The notes under the pieces are model-generated. The model searched no databases, had not been told where the DNA came from, and saw only the letters and a list, made by a program, of their open reading frames with translations. Source: a virus. From it: a stretch of DNA of 38,682 nucleotides. This document shows, piece after piece, positions 22,342 to 38,682 of the stretch; position 1 is the stretch's first letter; each line of letters opens with the position of its first letter. The DNA lies in the IMG/VR virus record IMGVR_UViG_3300048839_001898, positions 1 to 38,682 of that record; one strand, 5' to 3'. The position numbers and the translations under genes were made by a program.

Positions 22342-23631
22342 TTATTGGCTGATCTTGCGGTTGGCGGATTGTGCTATTTGGCTTGAGGCACCGAACGGTT
22401 GATCTGTTTCCCCATGCCGGCCTTCTCCCCCCGTCGTTTTCTGCCAGCGCTGAACGATGACGTCGACGTATTTGGGATCGAGCTCGATGAGCCGCGCCCG
22501 CCGTCCAGCCCGCTCCGCCGCAATCAGCGTCGTGCCTGAGCCGCCGAACGGATCGAGCACGATGTCGCGGCTCTTGGACGAATTGCGGATCGCGCGCTCG
22601 ACCAGAGCCACTGGCTTCATCGTCGGATGCAAATCGTTCTTGTGCGGCTTGTCGAAGAACCAGACGTCGCCCTGGTCGCGCGCGCCGCACCAATAGTGAT
22701 CGGTCCCATCCTTCCAGCCGTAGAGAATTGGTTCGTACTGGCGCTGATAGTCAGAGCGACCCAGCGTGAAGCTGTTCTTGGCCCAGATCACAAACGTCGA
22801 CCACTTTCCGCCGGCCTCTCGGAACGCCTTCTGCAGCCGGTCAAGTTCAGACGATGACATGCAGATGTAGACGGCACCCTTGGTGAGCGCGAGGATATTG
22901 ACGCAGGCGTCGTACAGAAGGGCGCCGAAGTCCGCGCCAAGGTTGTCATTCAGGATCGGACGATTCTTGCCGCCTAGCTTGTCCTTTGGGGTGTTGGCGT
23001 AGTCCACGTTGTACGGTGGATCAGTGAACGTCATATCGGCGAGTTCGCCTGCGAGGACCTTCTCGGCATCGGACAGGACCGCGGCGTCGCCACACAACAC
23101 GCGATGCTCGCCACAGATCCACAGATCGCCGGGACGGCTGATCGGCTCCTCTGGCGGCTCGGGTGCCTCGTCGAGATCGCCATCGCCGTCGGCATCGACC
23201 AGCAGTAGCTTGTCGAGTTCATCCCGATCAAAGCCGGTCAGCGTCAGATCGAAACCGGCCTCGCGCAGATCACCGAGCTCAAGCCGGAGCAGTTCGTCAT
23301 TCCACTCACTCGTTTCCGTTAATTTATTGTCGGCGATTGCGTAAGCCTGGCACTGCGTCTCGCTCCAACCGTGCGCGACAATCGTCGGCACTTCGCCGAT
23401 GCCCTCCAGCATGGCGGCCTCAAGCCGGCCGTGGCCGGCGATCAGCATGCCGTTTTCTCGCACGAGAACCGGCATGGTCCAGCCGAATTCCCGGAGCGAC
23501 GCCCGGATCTGCTCGATCTGCTCGGGCCCGTGAACGCGCGCGTTGCGCGGGTTCACGGTCAGCCGCTCCAAGGGCCAGAATTCGATTTTTGCAGCCGGCC
23601 AAGCGGCTGAGGGTTTTTGAGCGTCGTGCAT
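22342..23631 (-). CDS. ParB-like domain / DNA methyltransferase fusion
   Basis: A 429-aa protein starting MHDAQKPSAAWPAAKIEFWP. Residues 15-100 are a ParB/Srx-like nuclease-fold domain (VNPRNARVHGPEQIEQIRAS then MLIAGHGRLEAA). Residues 165-400 are an amino-methyltransferase: DPPY in TFTDPPYNVD (204-207) and DPFGGSGTT (360-368), giving the beta-class order with catalytic motif before the AdoMet motif. This fusion is common in alphaproteobacterial prophages, where it modifies adenine or cytosine in the phage genome and probably protects it from host restriction. No cognate endonuclease is nearby. Target sequence cannot be told from the sequence. Confidence 0.93.
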   Translation of the reverse strand: MHDAQKPSAAWPAAKIEFWPLERLTVNPRNARVHGPEQIEQIRASLREFGWTMPVLVRENGMLIAGHGRLEAAMLEGIGEVPTIVAHGWSETQCQAYAIADNKLTETSEWNDELLRLELGDLREAGFDLTLTGFDRDELDKLLLVDADGDGDLDEAPEPPEEPISRPGDLWICGEHRVLCGDAAVLSDAEKVLAGELADMTFTDPPYNVDYANTPKDKLGGKNRPILNDNLGADFGALLYDACVNILALTKGAVYICMSSSELDRLQKAFREAGGKWSTFVIWAKNSFTLGRSDYQRQYEPILYGWKDGTDHYWCGARDQGDVWFFDKPHKNDLHPTMKPVALVERAIRNSSKSRDIVLDPFGGSGTTLIAAERAGRRARLIELDPKYVDVIVQRWQKTTGGEGRHGETDQPFGASSQIAQSANRKISQ

Positions 23632-23687
23632 TGATATCGTTGGGCTATTCGTCCGCGAAACCAAACCAAACTGAGGTTTTTCGATTT

Positions 23688-23706
23688 GGAAAAACGCGCG
23701 TTTTCC
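23688..23706. promoter_or_regulatory. Palindrome upstream of the methyltransferase gene
   Basis: A near-perfect dyad, GGAAAA / TTTTCC around a CG-alternating centre, lies about 57 bases before the methyltransferase ATG and about 65 bases after the tail-protein-Z-like gene. On the minus strand it also has a five-T run, so it could be a weak terminator of the upstream operon or an operator of the methyltransferase promoter. Confidence 0.4.
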
Positions 23707-23772
23707 GGGCGGCGGCGCCACCGCTTGTGAGGCCCCCGAAGGAAGGACCCGTTGAATTGCCGCGAGCCTGCG

Positions 23773-26393: not shown

Positions 26394-26540
26394 GAGTGGT
26401 CTCCGTTCAGGGAATCGTTCGTGGTGGAGGGCGACGGCGGTCTGGTGCTTGGCTGCGCGGGCCGCCGTCGTCTGTTCAGAGGTCTGTCATCACGGCGGAC
26501 CACGGGGCCGTAGAGTTTGCCAGGTCATCTTTCGGGTGAG

Positions 26541-26586
26541 GGCCACGCACCCTTTGGGGCGTGGCCTCTCCCTACGTAGTAGGGAG
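26541..26586. other. Two adjacent strong hairpins between the helicase and resolvase genes
   Basis: GGCCACGC (26541-26548) pairs with GCGTGGCC (26559-26566), with CCC/GGG extending the stem inside the loop. Immediately beside it CTCCCTAC (26568-26575) pairs with GTAGGGAG (26579-26586) around a 3-base loop. No long T-run follows on either strand, so they are not classical terminators. Together with the nearby repeats they occupy most of the 26394-26693 non-coding interval. Confidence 0.75.
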
Positions 26587-26595
26587 GGTTTCGCA

Positions 26596-26766
26596 CCTAA
26601 CTCCTCGACGTTGATCAACATGCTGATTTCCTTTGAGATTTTCAGATGACGGAGGAGTGAGGGAGGAGTTAGGGGCCTAACTCCTCATTTCAGCTAACCC
26701 GTTGATTTCATTGCATCAGGAGTTCGGGAGGAGTGAGGAGTTCGGCCTAACTCCTCAGGAGTTAGG
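26596..26766. repeat. Nine-copy 11-bp repeat, candidate replication origin iterons
   Basis: Nine copies of GAGGAGTTAGG or close variants (Gs or Cs at two positions) lie at 26596, 26652, 26663, 26676, 26717, 26728, 26735, 26746 and 26756. Copies starting 26652/26663 and 26717/26728 are head-to-tail at 11-bp spacing. 26663 with 26676, and 26746 with 26756, form inverted pairs with 1-2 base centres. A stretch clearly richer in A and T (26609-26650) lies among them. Six of the nine fall wholly or partly in the last codons of the primase-helicase or just beyond its stop. This pattern resembles iterons of an origin next to its initiator gene; a repressor-binding array is the main alternative. Confidence 0.72.
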
Positions 26767-29057
26767 TCATTGTCGACGTCCTGTGGGTAAACCCAGACGT
26801 GCGGGTTTTCGACGTTGAGGCAGGCGCCCGACTGCGGACATTTGTAATGACTGGGCAGGACTGACTGCGCGCCAAGGACGATCTCACCGGTCAGCGGATC
26901 GACGCGGTCCTCCGGCATGAAGTGCATGCCTTCGATGCAGAGATAACCGAATCGCGAGCGCATGACGGGATAGCCAAAGGCCGTGCCATCGCGGAGAAAC
27001 TTGACGAAGCCTTTGGTGGCGAGAACGCTGAGACGCTCCCGGATCGTATGCTTGCTTCCGAGGCCGCCCTTGTTCTCGAACGCCTCAGCGAACTGCATGG
27101 TGGAGTAGAGGCGGCCTTGCGCGGCCTCCTCGAAGATCAGTCCGAGAATGACGTCGCCTTTGCGCAGCCGTTCCGCATCGTAACGTTCGCCGACTTCCTT
27201 GCGCACCAGCCGTTCGTTCATCGGGTTCAGCTCAATCCAGCGGCCGTTGACCTTATCGATCAGCTTGGCGGGCAATGCGGGTCCGTTGCGCAACTCGATT
27301 TCGAGTCGTCGTGCGGTACTCGCCTCATCTGGCCGGTGCATCAGTAGCCCTGAGGTGTAGAAGCCGCGGAGCGCGCTTGCGCCCGAGAGCGCGAGGAACG
27401 GATCGTCCTTGACCTGTTGTTTGCCCGCCTTACGAGTGTGATGGACGAGGATCACGCCAGCATCCGCGTTGACCATGTCTCTCAGCACCTCGACACGATC
27501 CTTCAGGAAGAACATCATCGCGTTGTTATCGTTCTCGCCCCCGCCATCGGGTCCGCCGTCGAACAGGTTTCGGATCGGGTCGAGGCAGAGGACGTCGGGG
27601 GCTGCATCGGGAAAGGCGGCACGGATCGCATCCGCAACGCGCGGAACGCCGTTGGCGTCGAGCAGGAGCTTCAGCTTCGGTGTAACGACGAATGTGTCGC
27701 GCGCGGCGGCCATCATCGACGCATCCAGGCGGATGCTCTGCATGCGCTCGCGCAGATAGTGGTACTGGATCTCCGCCTGCAGGTAGAAGACCCTGAGTGC
27801 CCGAGGCGGCGTGAAGCCAAGGAACGACGCGCCGGTTGCCATATGGACAAGCCAGCTGATCAGGAAATCGCTTTTGCCGACCTTGGGCGCGCCGCCAAGC
27901 ACGAGGAGCCCGCCCGGCGTCAATACGCGCGGGCCGATGATGTCGTCGGGCATCGGGCTCGTGTCGTCGAGCAGCGCACCGAGCGTGAAGGCGGGCAGCG
28001 GCGCTTCCGCCGCTGCGGTAGGCTCAGCCCGGAGGAGTGGTGGGCCGTTTCTTTCGACATGGCGGGCCCAGAGGCGATCGGCCTCCCGCTTGAGGCGATC
28101 GAGCGGCCAAGCAGGCCGCAGCATGGCGGCGTTGTACTCACAGATCGCCTCCCATCCGTCGTTGGGACTGATGCGGCCCTCGTGAACCTGACGGATGTAA
28201 TGACCGATGGCGGCGCTGGCGCCCTCGAACCGGGTCCACGCATCATGGCCCCCCTCATGAACGGGCGTCGTCAGAACCCGGCCGATCGACGGCTTTTGAA
28301 GGGCAGCCACAGGCTCGGCGCCGCCGAACGCGAAGGGCGGCATCGCTTCGACCCGGTCGGCAAACTCGCGCAGGTCGACTTCGAGGCGTGCATTGTGCTC
28401 GCGGATCGCCACGACCCGCTGAAAACCTCCTTTGTGGTAGACGGAGCCGGCAACACGGATAGGCTGGTGCGCCGAGCGGAAATGCGTATCGCCGCCGATC
28501 TTGACGGCGATGTCGCCGCGCAAACGGCATAGTTTCGCAAGGTCCTCGCCGACCGCAGGTTCGGTCAGCTTCCACCAGACATGCAGCTTGTCGATGCCCT
28601 CCGGCGTGCGGCCGCCGCTTTCGACGGTCAGGGTGGGTTGACCGAGGTAATCGACAAGGTGCCGGTATTTGCCCGCGATGTCGCCAGCATCGAGATCGAC
28701 GACGATGGCCTGCATCTGCGCCACGTCGGCGGCTTTGGCCTGACCGTTCTGCGCTACGACGCCCGGAATGACATAGACGGCCGCACCCTCGCGCCAGGCC
28801 CATGCGGCGAAGGTGCAGAGCTTGCTGACGGCGTTGGTGTTCGCCTCGATCCAGATGTTGTGTGGCCGGCCGTCGAAACCTTGCCCCTTGTCGACGAAGC
28901 CGCGAACCGGGATCAGGCCCTCGCAATAGCTGAACACGACATCGAGGAAGGCGGCGACCTGTTCGCGGTCGGGCTCGACACCGAACGGATCAGTCATGAT
29001 CGGGGCGTCGTTGAAATCTCGCCAGGGGTTGAAATGAATAAGGTTGTCGTCGGTCAC
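26694..29057 (-). CDS. Phage primase-helicase (RepB-primase-like plus RecA-fold ATPase)
   Basis: A 787-aa protein from the GTG at 29055-29057, which shares four bases with the nuclease stop (GTGA). The N-terminal half resembles AEP-type primases (IVVDLDAGD at 119-126 with the Asp pair, then KIGGDTHFRSAHQPIRVAGS). The ATPase domain has Walker A LGGAPKVGKSDFL (387-398) and Walker B DVLCLDPIRN (about 488-497), as in RepA/DnaB-like helicases. A C-terminal winged-helix region follows (ERLRKGDVILGLIFEEAAQG). It probably primes and unwinds DNA at the phage origin. Its last codons contain the iteron-like repeats. Confidence 0.88.
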   Translation of the reverse strand: MTDDNLIHFNPWRDFNDAPIMTDPFGVEPDREQVAAFLDVVFSYCEGLIPVRGFVDKGQGFDGRPHNIWIEANTNAVSKLCTFAAWAWREGAAVYVIPGVVAQNGQAKAADVAQMQAIVVDLDAGDIAGKYRHLVDYLGQPTLTVESGGRTPEGIDKLHVWWKLTEPAVGEDLAKLCRLRGDIAVKIGGDTHFRSAHQPIRVAGSVYHKGGFQRVVAIREHNARLEVDLREFADRVEAMPPFAFGGAEPVAALQKPSIGRVLTTPVHEGGHDAWTRFEGASAAIGHYIRQVHEGRISPNDGWEAICEYNAAMLRPAWPLDRLKREADRLWARHVERNGPPLLRAEPTAAAEAPLPAFTLGALLDDTSPMPDDIIGPRVLTPGGLLVLGGAPKVGKSDFLISWLVHMATGASFLGFTPPRALRVFYLQAEIQYHYLRERMQSIRLDASMMAAARDTFVVTPKLKLLLDANGVPRVADAIRAAFPDAAPDVLCLDPIRNLFDGGPDGGGENDNNAMMFFLKDRVEVLRDMVNADAGVILVHHTRKAGKQQVKDDPFLALSGASALRGFYTSGLLMHRPDEASTARRLEIELRNGPALPAKLIDKVNGRWIELNPMNERLVRKEVGERYDAERLRKGDVILGLIFEEAAQGRLYSTMQFAEAFENKGGLGSKHTIRERLSVLATKGFVKFLRDGTAFGYPVMRSRFGYLCIEGMHFMPEDRVDPLTGEIVLGAQSVLPSHYKCPQSGACLNVENPHVWVYPQDVDNDLTPEELGRTPHSSRTPDAMKSTG

Positions 29058-35194: not shown

Positions 35195-35421
35195 TTTTTC
35201 CTCCTATTTCGGACGCTACTTCCATCGGCAGCCTCCAACTGCTCAATAAAGGCGAGGACCTTGTCGGCGGTGGCGAGCGTGGGAGACCGTCCACGCCGCA
35301 GATTGAGGATAAACGACGCATCCCCAATGGCTTGGCGTCCGAATTCGGTCGGCTTGAAGCCCGATACCTGAAGAAAGGCCTCGACCCTGGCGACGAAATG
35401 TTCACTAAATGTTCTTGCCAT
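35191..35421 (-). CDS. Small HTH regulator, Cro-like position
   Basis: A 76-aa protein from ATG 35421, MARTFSEHFVARVEAFLQVS. Residues 18-55 carry a helix-turn-helix pattern (GFKPTEFGRQAIGDASFILN then LRRGRSPTLATADKVLAFIE), where the second helix has the spacing of an XRE-type fold. The C-terminus is basic. Divergent transcription from the S24-type repressor places it where lambdoid phages keep cro. Direct role in lytic switch is inferred from location only. Its promoter appears to start transcription at or near the ATG. Confidence 0.72.
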   Translation of the reverse strand: MARTFSEHFVARVEAFLQVSGFKPTEFGRQAIGDASFILNLRRGRSPTLATADKVLAFIEQLEAADGSSVRNRRKK

Positions 35422-35457
35422 GGGAGGCATAAAAGCGATATGCAGATCGGGCGTCAA
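35422..35457 (-). promoter_or_regulatory. Promoter of the Cro-like/sigma operon, probably leaderless
   Basis: On the minus strand TTGACG (35452-35457) and TTTTAT (35429-35434) are separated by exactly 17 bp, a good sigma-70 promoter. The predicted start, about 7 bases past the -10, falls on or next to the ATG at 35421, leaving no room for a Shine-Dalgarno. The mRNA may therefore be leaderless, as for lambda cI from pRM. Confidence 0.62.
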
Positions 35458-35506
35458 CGAAAAGAAGTTGGCAATTTCCTACATCGATGAATCAAGGGGT
35501 TACTCC

Positions 35507-36223
35507 ATGGATCTCGATCCGATCAGGCTGAAGGTCCTCGATCTCGTCGAGCGCGCTGGCACCGATCTGAAGAAGGCTTCGCTCGCTTGTGGCAAGAACG
35601 CTGCCTACGTGCACCAGTTCATCTATCGCGGCACGCCCAAAATTCTGCCCGAGGACGTGCGCGAGGCGCTTGCCAAGCATCTCGGTGTGCACGATCGCGC
35701 GCTGCGCCATCCCGAGGTGCCGCAGCGGAAGGTCCCGGCGCGCCATGAGGATGAGCAAGATGACCAACTGGAAGCTCGCAAGCGTCCGCGGCGATCGGCT
35801 GCAGGATTCTCACCGATCACCGAGATCGACATGCGCGCGTCCGCAGGACCCGGCGCGTTTCATGAAGGACTCGAGGAGGCCAAGATCACCTGGCTGTTCC
35901 CCGACGAGGTGATCCGCCACGAGTTTCGCGCGCGGCCGGAGGATCTGCATATCGTCACGATCGACGGCGACTCGATGGAGCCCCTGTTGTCGAGCGGCGA
36001 CCGCATCATGGTCGATACCAGCCGGCGCGTGCCGGCCCCGCCTGGCATATTCGTGATCTGGGACGGCATGGGCGTCGTGGCCAAACGCATTGAGCACGTG
36101 GCGCACTCGGATCCAACCAAGATCATCATCAAGTCGCTTAATCCTGAGTACCAGACCTATGAGCGCAATGCCGAGGATGTGAACATCATCGGCCGCGTGG
36201 TTTGGGCCTCGAAGCGGCTGTGA
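35507..36223 (+). CDS. S24-family phage repressor (LexA/cI-like)
   Basis: A 238-aa protein starting at ATG 35507, MDLDPIRLKVLDLVERAGTD. The N-terminal HTH region is LKKASLACGKNAAYVHQFIY (21-40), then a helix to about 62. The C-terminal S24 peptidase domain has Ser156 in IDGDSMEPL and Lys193 in VVAKRI, the catalytic dyad. An Ala-Gly at 113-114 in RASAGPG is a candidate self-cleavage site, about 43 residues before the Ser. It probably keeps the lysogen silent and is released by RecA-stimulated cleavage after DNA damage. Divergent from the Cro-like gene. Confidence 0.9.
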   Translation: MDLDPIRLKVLDLVERAGTDLKKASLACGKNAAYVHQFIYRGTPKILPEDVREALAKHLGVHDRALRHPEVPQRKVPARHEDEQDDQLEARKRPRRSAAGFSPITEIDMRASAGPGAFHEGLEEAKITWLFPDEVIRHEFRARPEDLHIVTIDGDSMEPLLSSGDRIMVDTSRRVPAPPGIFVIWDGMGVVAKRIEHVAHSDPTKIIIKSLNPEYQTYERNAEDVNIIGRVVWASKRL

Positions 36224-36401: not shown

Positions 36402-36461
36402 ATGTGGTCCGGTGACTTCGAAATGCCGTGGGATTGGCGCGTGCAGCGCCGAAACGATTGA
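36402..36461 (+). CDS. 19-codon leader-like ORF before the RecD2-type gene
   Basis: A very short ORF, MWSGDFEMPWDWRVQRRND, with a strong ribosome site (AAAGGA, 6 bases before the ATG). It ends 13 bases before the helicase ATG, which has no clear ribosome site of its own. It has three tryptophans among its first 12 residues. The spacing and strong start suggest translational coupling or a leader peptide. It may be a chance ORF. Confidence 0.4.
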   Translation: MWSGDFEMPWDWRVQRRND

Positions 36462-36474
36462 AGCGACGATCTCC

Positions 36475-38682
36475 ATGAAGCCTACGCCGGACCCATCAGC
36501 CCAGGACGTGTTGGCCGGCTTGGTTGAGCGCGTCACCTATCACAACGCAGAGAACGGCTTTTGCGTTCTGCGCGCCAAGGCGCGCGGGCATCGTGACATG
36601 GTGACCATCGTCGGCCATTCCGCGACCATTGCCGCCGGCGAGTGGATTACCGCCACAGGCAACTGGATCAACGACCGCACCCACGGCCAGCAGTTCAAAG
36701 CGAAGTTTCTGCGTACCTCGCTCCCCGATTCGGCCGACGGCATCGAGAAATATCTCTCGTCCGGTATGATCCGGGGCGTTGGGCCGGTCTACGCCAAGAA
36801 GCTGGTGCGCGCTTTCGGCGAGAAGGTGTTCGACGTCATCGAAGCGACGCCAGACCGGCTGCGTGAGGTCGATGGTATCGGGCCGGTTCGCGCCGCCAGC
36901 ATTCTCGCCGCCTGGGCCGAACAGAAGGCGGTCCGGGAAATCATGGTGTTCCTGCACAGCCATGGTGTCGGCACGGCGCGGGCGGTGCGGATCTTCAAGA
37001 CCTACGGTTCCGACGCCATCCAGGTCATGACCGAGAACCCGTATCGGCTAGCACGCGATATCCGCGGTATCGGGTTCAAGACTGCTGATGCCATTGCGAT
37101 GAAGCTCGGCATCGAGAAGACCGCGACGATCCGGGTTCGTGCAGGGATTTCCTATGCGCTGACCGAGGCCATGGACGAGGGCCATTGCGGTCTGCCAACG
37201 GAAGAGCTGATGCCGCTGGCCGAAAAGCTGCTTGAGGTGCCGCAGCAGCTCATCCGCACTGCGCTCGATCTCGAACTGCAGGAGGGCAATGTGGTCGCCG
37301 ATCGGGTCGGCGAAACCCCATGTGTGTTTCTGGCCGGCCTGCACCGTGCGGAACGCACCATCGCCGAGCGGCTGACACGGCTCGCAAACGGAATGTTGCC
37401 GTGGCCCTGGATCGATCCGGACAAGGCGTTGCCATGGGTCGAGAAGCATATCGGTCTGGCACTGGCCGAAAGCCAAGTCGCTGCGATCCGGCTGGCGCTG
37501 ATGTCCAAGGTGTTGGTCATGACCGGCGGCCCCGGTGTTGGCAAGACCACCATCGTAAAAGCCATTCTGCGGGTCCTTGCCGCGAAGGGCACTGAGATCC
37601 TGCTGTGCGCGCCGACTGGTCGCGCCGCGAAGCGCATGGCCGAGGCCACCGGGTTCGAGGCCAAGACCATCCACCGGCTGCTGGAGGTCGATCCCAAGGG
37701 CGGCGGCTTCAAGCGGGGCGATGACAACCCGCTCGACTGTGACCTGCTGGTCGTCGACGAGACCTCGATGGTCGACGTCATGCTGATGCAGTCGCTCATG
37801 AAGGCGATACCGGACCGGGCCGCGCTCTCGATCGTTGGTGACATCGACCAGCTCCCGTCGGTCGGACCGGGGCAGGTGCTGGCTGACGTCATCTCATCTG
37901 GCGCGGTGCCGGTGGTGCGCCTCACTGAGGTATTCCGGCAAGCCGCGCAAAGCCGGATCATCACCAGTGCCCATCGTATCAACCAGGGTTCGATCCCTGA
38001 TCTGAGTCCACCCGAAGCCGAGAGCGATTTTTACTTTGTGCAGGCTGACGACCCGGAGGCTGCCGTCGCCCGCATTATCGAGCTCGTAAAGACACGAATC
38101 CCCAAAAGGTTCGGGCTCGATCCGATCCGCGACATCCAGGTGCTGTGCCCGATGAATCGCGGTGGAGTAGGGGCGCGATCGCTGAACATCGAGCTGCAGG
38201 CCGCGCTCAATCCTGCAGGCGATCGCAAGGTCGAACGGTTCGGCTGGACGTTTGCACCCGGCGACAAGGTCATGCAGATCGAGAATGACTACGACAAGGA
38301 GGTCTACAACGGCGATATTGGTTATATCGACGATGTCGACCCCATTGACGGCGAAATCATCGCGGCTTTTGACGGCCGGTCCGTCAAATATGGATTTGGC
38401 GAGCTCGACATGCTGGTGCCCGCTTATGCTGCGACCATTCACAAAAGCCAGGGCTCGGAATATCCCGCCGTTATCATCCCGGTTCTCACCCAGCATTACG
38501 CCATGCTGCAGCGAAATCTGCTCTACACCGGCGTCACGCGCGGCAAGAAGCTCGTGGTGCTGGTCGGGCAGAAGAAGGCCGTCGCCATCGCTGTGCGCAA
38601 TGTCTCGGGGCGCAGGCGATGGTCGAAGCTCAGCGAGTGGTTGGCCACAAGCTCCAATTTGCCACGTGCTTCGACTTTTTGA
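36475..38682 (+). CDS. RecD2-like SF1B DNA helicase
   Basis: A 735-aa protein from ATG 36475, MKPTPDPSAQDVLAGLVERV. It has the RecD2 layout: an N-terminal OB-like domain; helix-hairpin-helix repeats (GIEKYLSSGMIRGVGPVYAK at about 89-108, GIGPVRAASILAAW at 134-147); Walker A GGPGVGKT (351-358); motif II VVDETSMVD (426-434); motif III GDIDQLPSVGPG (455-466); and the late motifs ATIHKSQGSE and LYTGVTRGK. It unwinds DNA 5' to 3' and is usually host-encoded; here it lies in the phage rightward operon. Stop is the last codon of the window, so the gene is complete. Early fragments upstream suggest decay around it. Confidence 0.92.
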   Translation: MKPTPDPSAQDVLAGLVERVTYHNAENGFCVLRAKARGHRDMVTIVGHSATIAAGEWITATGNWINDRTHGQQFKAKFLRTSLPDSADGIEKYLSSGMIRGVGPVYAKKLVRAFGEKVFDVIEATPDRLREVDGIGPVRAASILAAWAEQKAVREIMVFLHSHGVGTARAVRIFKTYGSDAIQVMTENPYRLARDIRGIGFKTADAIAMKLGIEKTATIRVRAGISYALTEAMDEGHCGLPTEELMPLAEKLLEVPQQLIRTALDLELQEGNVVADRVGETPCVFLAGLHRAERTIAERLTRLANGMLPWPWIDPDKALPWVEKHIGLALAESQVAAIRLALMSKVLVMTGGPGVGKTTIVKAILRVLAAKGTEILLCAPTGRAAKRMAEATGFEAKTIHRLLEVDPKGGGFKRGDDNPLDCDLLVVDETSMVDVMLMQSLMKAIPDRAALSIVGDIDQLPSVGPGQVLADVISSGAVPVVRLTEVFRQAAQSRIITSAHRINQGSIPDLSPPEAESDFYFVQADDPEAAVARIIELVKTRIPKRFGLDPIRDIQVLCPMNRGGVGARSLNIELQAALNPAGDRKVERFGWTFAPGDKVMQIENDYDKEVYNGDIGYIDDVDPIDGEIIAAFDGRSVKYGFGELDMLVPAYAATIHKSQGSEYPAVIIPVLTQHYAMLQRNLLYTGVTRGKKLVVLVGQKKAVAIAVRNVSGRRRWSKLSEWLATSSNLPRASTF

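Follow-up and report, generated by a model that had tools for sequence, protein, structure and literature searches.

A candidate iteron origin in a temperate phage, with a repeat word that covaries with the winged helix of the adjoining primase-helicase

The array of short repeats at the 3′ end of the primase-helicase gene in the stretch of viral DNA analysed here (the complete 38,682 nucleotides of IMG/VR record IMGVR_UViG_3300048839_001898, hereafter denoted the window) is, with high probability, a phage replication origin for which the primase-helicase is the initiator; both the binding and the origin activity are inferred. The comparison with relatives supports an arrangement of a known kind, i.e. 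an iteron origin beside its initiator gene, whilst the new element is unusually clear natural evidence for the matched exchange of a DNA-reading domain and the word that it is proposed to read. The proposal of the preliminary description, that iterons lie beside the gene of their own initiator, is strongly supported by this comparison, though by no experiment: the array is kept in place, it contains IHF-consensus sites, its AT content is raised, and its word tracks the winged helix of the primase-helicase.

All nine repeats that had been described at this position are recovered when the window is searched for GAGGAGTTAGG with no more than two mismatches (Table 1). Four of the nine are exact copies (at 26596, 26663, 26676 and 26746), and the copies at 26728 and 26735 share 4 bp. 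The exact 11-bp spacing claimed for part of the array is present in three steps (26652 to 26663, 26717 to 26728 and 26735 to 26746), as are inverted pairs, of which there are two (26663/26676 and 26746/26756). Outside the array, the same search gives four matches in the whole 38.7 kb, approximately the level expected by chance. Five words lie within the primase-helicase reading frame and four past its stop, in agreement with the reported position in and just after the last codons. The further statement that the array is partly coding holds to this extent only, since the reading frame of two close relatives (L005 and L010) ends sooner, inside the array (VDDDLTPQD, then the stop codon); the coding part is thus incidental, and the tail TPEELGRTPHSSRTPDAMKSTG is the array read as protein. 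An adjoining AT-richer segment, also noted previously, corresponds to the spacer after the first word, the AT content of which, 60%, contrasts with 37% for the window (99.8th percentile).

Table 1. Positions in the window of the array and of the features associated with it
Feature	Position	Strand	Basis or remark
Primase-helicase (inferred initiator), 802 aa	26694-29102	-	Fold and domain evidence
Winged-helix codons (residues ~645-725), followed by the array word	26928-27170	-	Recognition region, residues 676-703
Iteron array of nine GAGGAGTTAGG-type words, both orientations	26596-26766	.	Word matches; array in nearly all 280 relatives
Word copy 1	26596-26606	-	
Word copy 2	26652-26662	+	
Word copy 3	26663-26673	+	
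Word copy 4	26676-26686	-	
Word copy 5	26717-26727	+	
Word copy 6	26728-26738	+	
Word copy 7	26735-26745	+	
Word copy 8	26746-26756	-	
Word copy 9	26756-26766	+	
Exact IHF-consensus site AATCAACGGGTTA (WATCAANNNNTTR)	26695-26707	-	Between two word blocks; seen in the identical loci L001/L002
IHF-like site AATCAGCATGTTG, one mismatch	26616-26628	-	79 bp from the exact site, same orientation; sequence
AT-rich spacer, candidate unwinding element	26607-26651	.	60% AT
Hairpin 1, CTCCCTAC-TAC-GTAGGGAG	26568-26586	-	Perfect 8-bp stem with a 3-nt loop; apex CTNCG in most relatives
Hairpin 2, immediately behind hairpin 1 in the direction of the gene	26541-26566	-	8-bp stem with additional inner pairs

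Relatives were collected by scanning contigs of viruses and of genomes, using the protein as well as alignments; in 280 distinct loci the 3′ end and the flank were intact. An array is observed at the same place in nearly all of them, but the word itself differs: within 300 bp around the stop, the best 9-mer occurs in a median of 7 copies, compared with 2.6 in shuffles and 3 in control regions taken from these loci, and the other words found there include CATATGAGT, CTCTGTCAT, GAATCCGG, CAAAACACA and GCGGAACTT. The preliminary description had expected its word to recur at the same locus in relatives; the exact word is absent from most, and another, internally homogeneous word is present there instead. 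The words are concentrated in the arrays (24.7/kb, against 0.25/kb outside and 0.18 for a control word), prefer same-strand spacings of 7-9, 11-12, 17-18 and 20-21 bp, and fall into 26 groups among the 256 loci with at least five copies. Where two such elements could be seen in one genome, their words differ in both cases (CAGATTTCG and CAGTTTCGG in genome G002; CCAACTCCT and AAGTTGGGA in IMG isolate 2920089447), an observation that remains anecdotal with two cases only. In one locus, from Paracoccus mutanolyticus, the primase-helicase copy is decayed, with internal stops, and no clear array word is left.

The exact IHF-consensus site of the window overlaps the primase-helicase stop codon. In the relatives, the 260 bp after the stop contain 142 copies of WATCAANNNNTTR on the gene strand and 7 on the opposite one, where shuffled sequences give 1.15 on each; elsewhere there are only 26 in 2.23 Mb (0.012/kb). 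Approximately half of the relatives lack an exact site, while 75% have one when up to one mismatch is allowed. The enrichment of the consensus is thus observed, whereas the binding of IHF in the array is inferred from it. The AT content of the array region is likewise raised in the relatives, to 43-50% from about 36% around it. DnaA boxes are absent from the window and show no useful enrichment in the relatives, and DnaA is therefore probably not needed. GC skew is weak support for an origin at best and was not relied upon; in the window, its sign changes some 3 kb downstream from the array.

A search of PDB sequences with the primase-helicase gave no credible match, and its assignment therefore rests on folds. 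The order of domains is an AEP primase fold (residues ~43-292), a helical part, a RepA-like helicase (AAA_25, 378-560) and a winged helix (~645-725). The full-length AlphaFold2 model, made from a 30-sequence alignment, has a mean pLDDT of 70 and a pTM of 0.39; in Foldseek it retrieves the RSF1010 RepB′ primase first (3h20, E 3.7e-8) and RSF1010 RepA next (1olo, E 1.3e-5). VIA-align gives Z scores of 18.4 to the AEP domain of S-2L PrimPol, 15.4 to the RepB′ catalytic domain with initiator DNA (3h25) and 13.8 to the RepA helicase (1g8y). The predicted protein thus resembles the RSF1010 RepB′ primase fused to the RSF1010 RepA helicase and a winged helix. Folded alone, the C-terminal domain is predicted as a winged helix with better scores (pLDDT 85, pTM 0.79); Foldseek finds no specific relative for it (best E 0.027), and its structural matches are to generic winged helices only (Z of at most 7.0), without a specific family.

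By a motif rule, the N-terminus is of AEP type in 188 relatives and of TOPRIM type in 76. Both types alike carry the helicase, the winged helix, the array, the IHF sites and the hairpins. Pfam Toprim matches are weak in the TOPRIM-type relatives and above the cut-off in L039 and L052; in these and other loci of this type, including L035 and L054, the primase is replaced and the unit of helicase, winged helix and array is kept.

Behind the array, the window has the twin hairpins with 8-bp stems that had been described (Table 1), and the DNA folding z-score of this region is -3.7. A hairpin with arms of 6 bp or longer is present in 59 of 63 non-redundant loci (shuffles: 10.8), and in 53 a second hairpin follows it immediately (shuffles: 4). 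The arms comprise 43 different sequences, and CTNCG forms the apex in 183 of 239 cases. A reading of the hairpins as ssi sites of the RepB′ type, like the ssiA and ssiB priming hairpins of an IncQ replicon, was considered and lowered, because relatives with TOPRIM primases have them as often as those with AEP primases; the CTNCG apex also fits an RNA loop of the UNCG type. An intrinsic terminator seems unlikely, as no T-run followed the hairpins in those sequences that were inspected by eye. In a number of loci (L006, L063, L112 and others), a three-arm arrangement is present some 150-220 bp after the primase-helicase stop; in these loci, as in the closest group, hairpin 1 has a 3′ arm that can pair either with the 5′ arm opposite it or with a third copy lying beyond hairpin 2, an arrangement reminiscent of an RNA switch. 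The hairpins may serve for priming, as a structural part of the origin or as an RNA element, and we do not choose between these. A conserved GC-rich inverted element (CGACGGCGG...CCGCCGTCG, window 26432-26509; GACGGCGGCCGGTACCGCCAAGCATCAACCGCCGTC in many relatives) lies between the hairpins and the start codon of the RuvC-like gene, and has no Rfam match. Over 25.8-27.0 kb of the window, Rfam returned nothing credible and one match at chance level.

The conserved tandem hairpins with the CTNCG apex, which could be an RNA element, are one of two points in favour of an autoregulatory array, in which the winged helix would bind the words in order to control transcription into the RuvC-like operon downstream or to silence its own message; the other is the place of the array, with the primase-helicase on one side of it and the next gene of that strand on the other. 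A protein-bound array could indeed be regulatory only, and there are no footprint, binding or replication data. Nonetheless, at least seven words together with IHF sites, in DNA of raised AT content beside a primase-helicase, exceed the usual needs of an operator, and the AEP and TOPRIM versions of the protein are both followed by the same array. We therefore consider autoregulation alone to be unlikely.

Evidence for the identity of the reader comes from the covariation of the word with the winged helix. Two relatives rarely share a word (word sharing 0.01-0.10) when their identity exceeds 90% over residues 60-620 and falls below 70% in the C-terminal domain, whereas pairs only 70-80% identical in the N-terminal part but more than 90% in the C-terminal domain mostly do (0.82). 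A sliding window along the protein predicts the same word best at residues 660-704 (AUC 0.93), with at most 0.84 for windows within 60-644, and 77 swap trios were found, for example L018/L010/L071. Since word pairs are not independent, it is the permutation test of word against domain, and not the number of pairs, that carries the claim; it gave P 0.001, also inside groups with similar N-terminal parts, within which rho was 0.65 against a permuted maximum of 0.25. The analysis was exploratory, in that word length, thresholds and domain borders were picked while viewing the data. A further swap statistic is weaker, with word sharing of only 0.49 for pairs below 0.75 in the N-terminal part and above 0.9 in the recognition region; this may in part be due to the CCTnACTCATATG and GAGGAGTTAGG groups, which have a common recognition helix and a common CCTnACTC half but a different wing. 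The specificity of the array word thus matches the winged helix of the inferred initiator by statistical covariation, without binding data.

The C-terminal domain adjoins the array, and part of the covariation may therefore be linkage. At its extreme, this would mean that there is no functional link at all and that array and winged helix covary only through recombination of neighbouring DNA. The gene end next to the array does predict the word well (AUC 0.891), and some linkage effect therefore remains; however, the amino acids of the recognition region do so better (0.943), and far better than the winged-helix third codon positions (0.781) or the RuvC-like gene across the array (0.769), and the arrays remain internally homogeneous. 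Linkage as the sole cause is accordingly most improbable.

The same covariation bears on whether the array could be a packaging (cos) or partition site, with words for the terminase small subunit or a ParB-like protein and IHF acting as in lambda cosB. The window has a large terminase of the lambda type (GpA) as well as the IHF-like sites, and a ParB-methylase fusion is nearby, but the gene for the terminase small subunit is 5 kb distant and the covariation localises to the winged helix of the primase-helicase (the terminase was not part of this comparison), leaving very little room for such a site. The fusion (22342-23721, minus strand) joins a ParB-N domain to an N6/N4 DNA methylase (phrog_498) and lies between the replication and packaging genes. 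An operator array for a new repressor had been put forward as the alternative. We give next to no credence to the array being the operator of a separate repressor, such as the CI-like S24 protein (35420-36223): the phage has this gene and short inverted repeat arrays are typical of operators, but no word copies occur near the repressor gene or elsewhere beyond chance, and the word covaries with the winged helix of the primase-helicase. The phage is temperate; the repressor gene is adjoined by that of a RecD2-like helicase (36412-38682, plus strand; HHH_RecD2, OB_YrrC) at the edge of the record.

The most likely reading is hence an iteron/IHF origin that is read by the fused primase-helicase itself, without DnaA. 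In the mechanism that we propose, the GAGGAGTTAGG words would be bound by the C-terminal winged helix, and IHF, at one or two sites between the words, would bend the DNA and compact the array into a complex. The neighbouring AT-rich DNA would then open and the RepA-like hexameric helicase domain, brought in by this one polypeptide, would be loaded, after which the fused primase would make the first primers for extension by a host polymerase. Opening, helicase loading and priming are all inferred, as are the binding of the words and the occupancy of the IHF sites.

By analogy, the best reading of the protein is as an all-in-one counterpart of RSF1010 RepA/RepB′/RepC. In RSF1010, the iterons are bound by RepC, RepA unwinds, and RepB′ primes at hairpins (PMC4234260, PMC4538821). 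Its IncQ oriV has, as here, iterons with an initiator, a hexameric helicase of the RepA family, a primase of the RepB′ fold and hairpins close to the iterons; RSF1010, however, is a plasmid that encodes three distinct proteins, whereas here the three activities are predicted as domains of one 802-aa phage protein. In addition, the words here are about 11 bp long, occur in both orientations and have IHF-consensus sites between them, and the hairpins have not been shown to prime. An IncQ replicon calls for a RepB′-fold primase with a RepA-family helicase, which is met by fold only, and for separate RepA, RepB′ and RepC, which is not met; the array is not filed as one because the protein is a single fused polypeptide.

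Proteins with AEP, RepA and winged-helix domains have been catalogued in mobile elements, with the winged helix proposed to find origins, and a flange arginine (motif IV) has been described for the PrimPol-PV1 supergroup; in this supergroup, primases like PrimQH/all3500 run from AEP through PriCT and the RepA helicase to the winged helix, the same domain order as in the window protein, which by fold unites an AEP primase, a RepA helicase and a C-terminal winged helix (PMC5862659). The word 'iteron' is absent from the main text of that paper, and what the present comparison provides beyond it are the DNA partners and the natural swaps. Phage P4 alpha likewise combines primase, helicase and an origin-repeat-binding winged helix in a single protein (PMC4234260), but its primase is TOPRIM; the N-terminus of the window protein matches AEP structures, not the TOPRIM domain of a P4 alpha-type initiator, and its helicase is of the RepA type, although the N-terminus is TOPRIM-like in 76 relatives. 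The RepA region of Wolbachia phage WO has a relative of the helicase and winged helix, followed, as here, by an array, there of AAGATGGCA words, and by an IHF-consensus site; this RepA has a TOPRIM-like N-terminus and is only 23% identical overall to the window protein. In lambda, the iterons lie in the middle of O, which has no primase or helicase of its own. The lambdoid O initiator binds its own origin, with iterons that overlap or adjoin the initiator gene, as they do here (PMC7466680).

As winged helix and array lie side by side, they would be exchanged together between phages, and each lineage would thus have its own word. Beyond this, we can place only even odds on the wider idea that the winged helix and the downstream iteron array form an exchangeable 'origin identity' cassette, swapped as a unit regardless of primase type (AEP or TOPRIM) and yielding dozens of mutually exclusive specificities, by which related prophages could share a cell without cross-firing or titrating each other's origins.

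The analysis pairs candidate origins with their cognate reader domain in a widespread and mostly uncultured group of phages that comprises several hundred IMG/VR relatives as well as isolates and a Wolbachia phage. DNA partners are thereby also given for a winged helix whose proposed role as an origin reader had lacked a known site (PMC5862659). The 26 word groups matched to recognition-region sequences are a data set for learning how winged helices read DNA and how an initiator and its origin change together, and offer orthogonal origin-initiator pairs to test.
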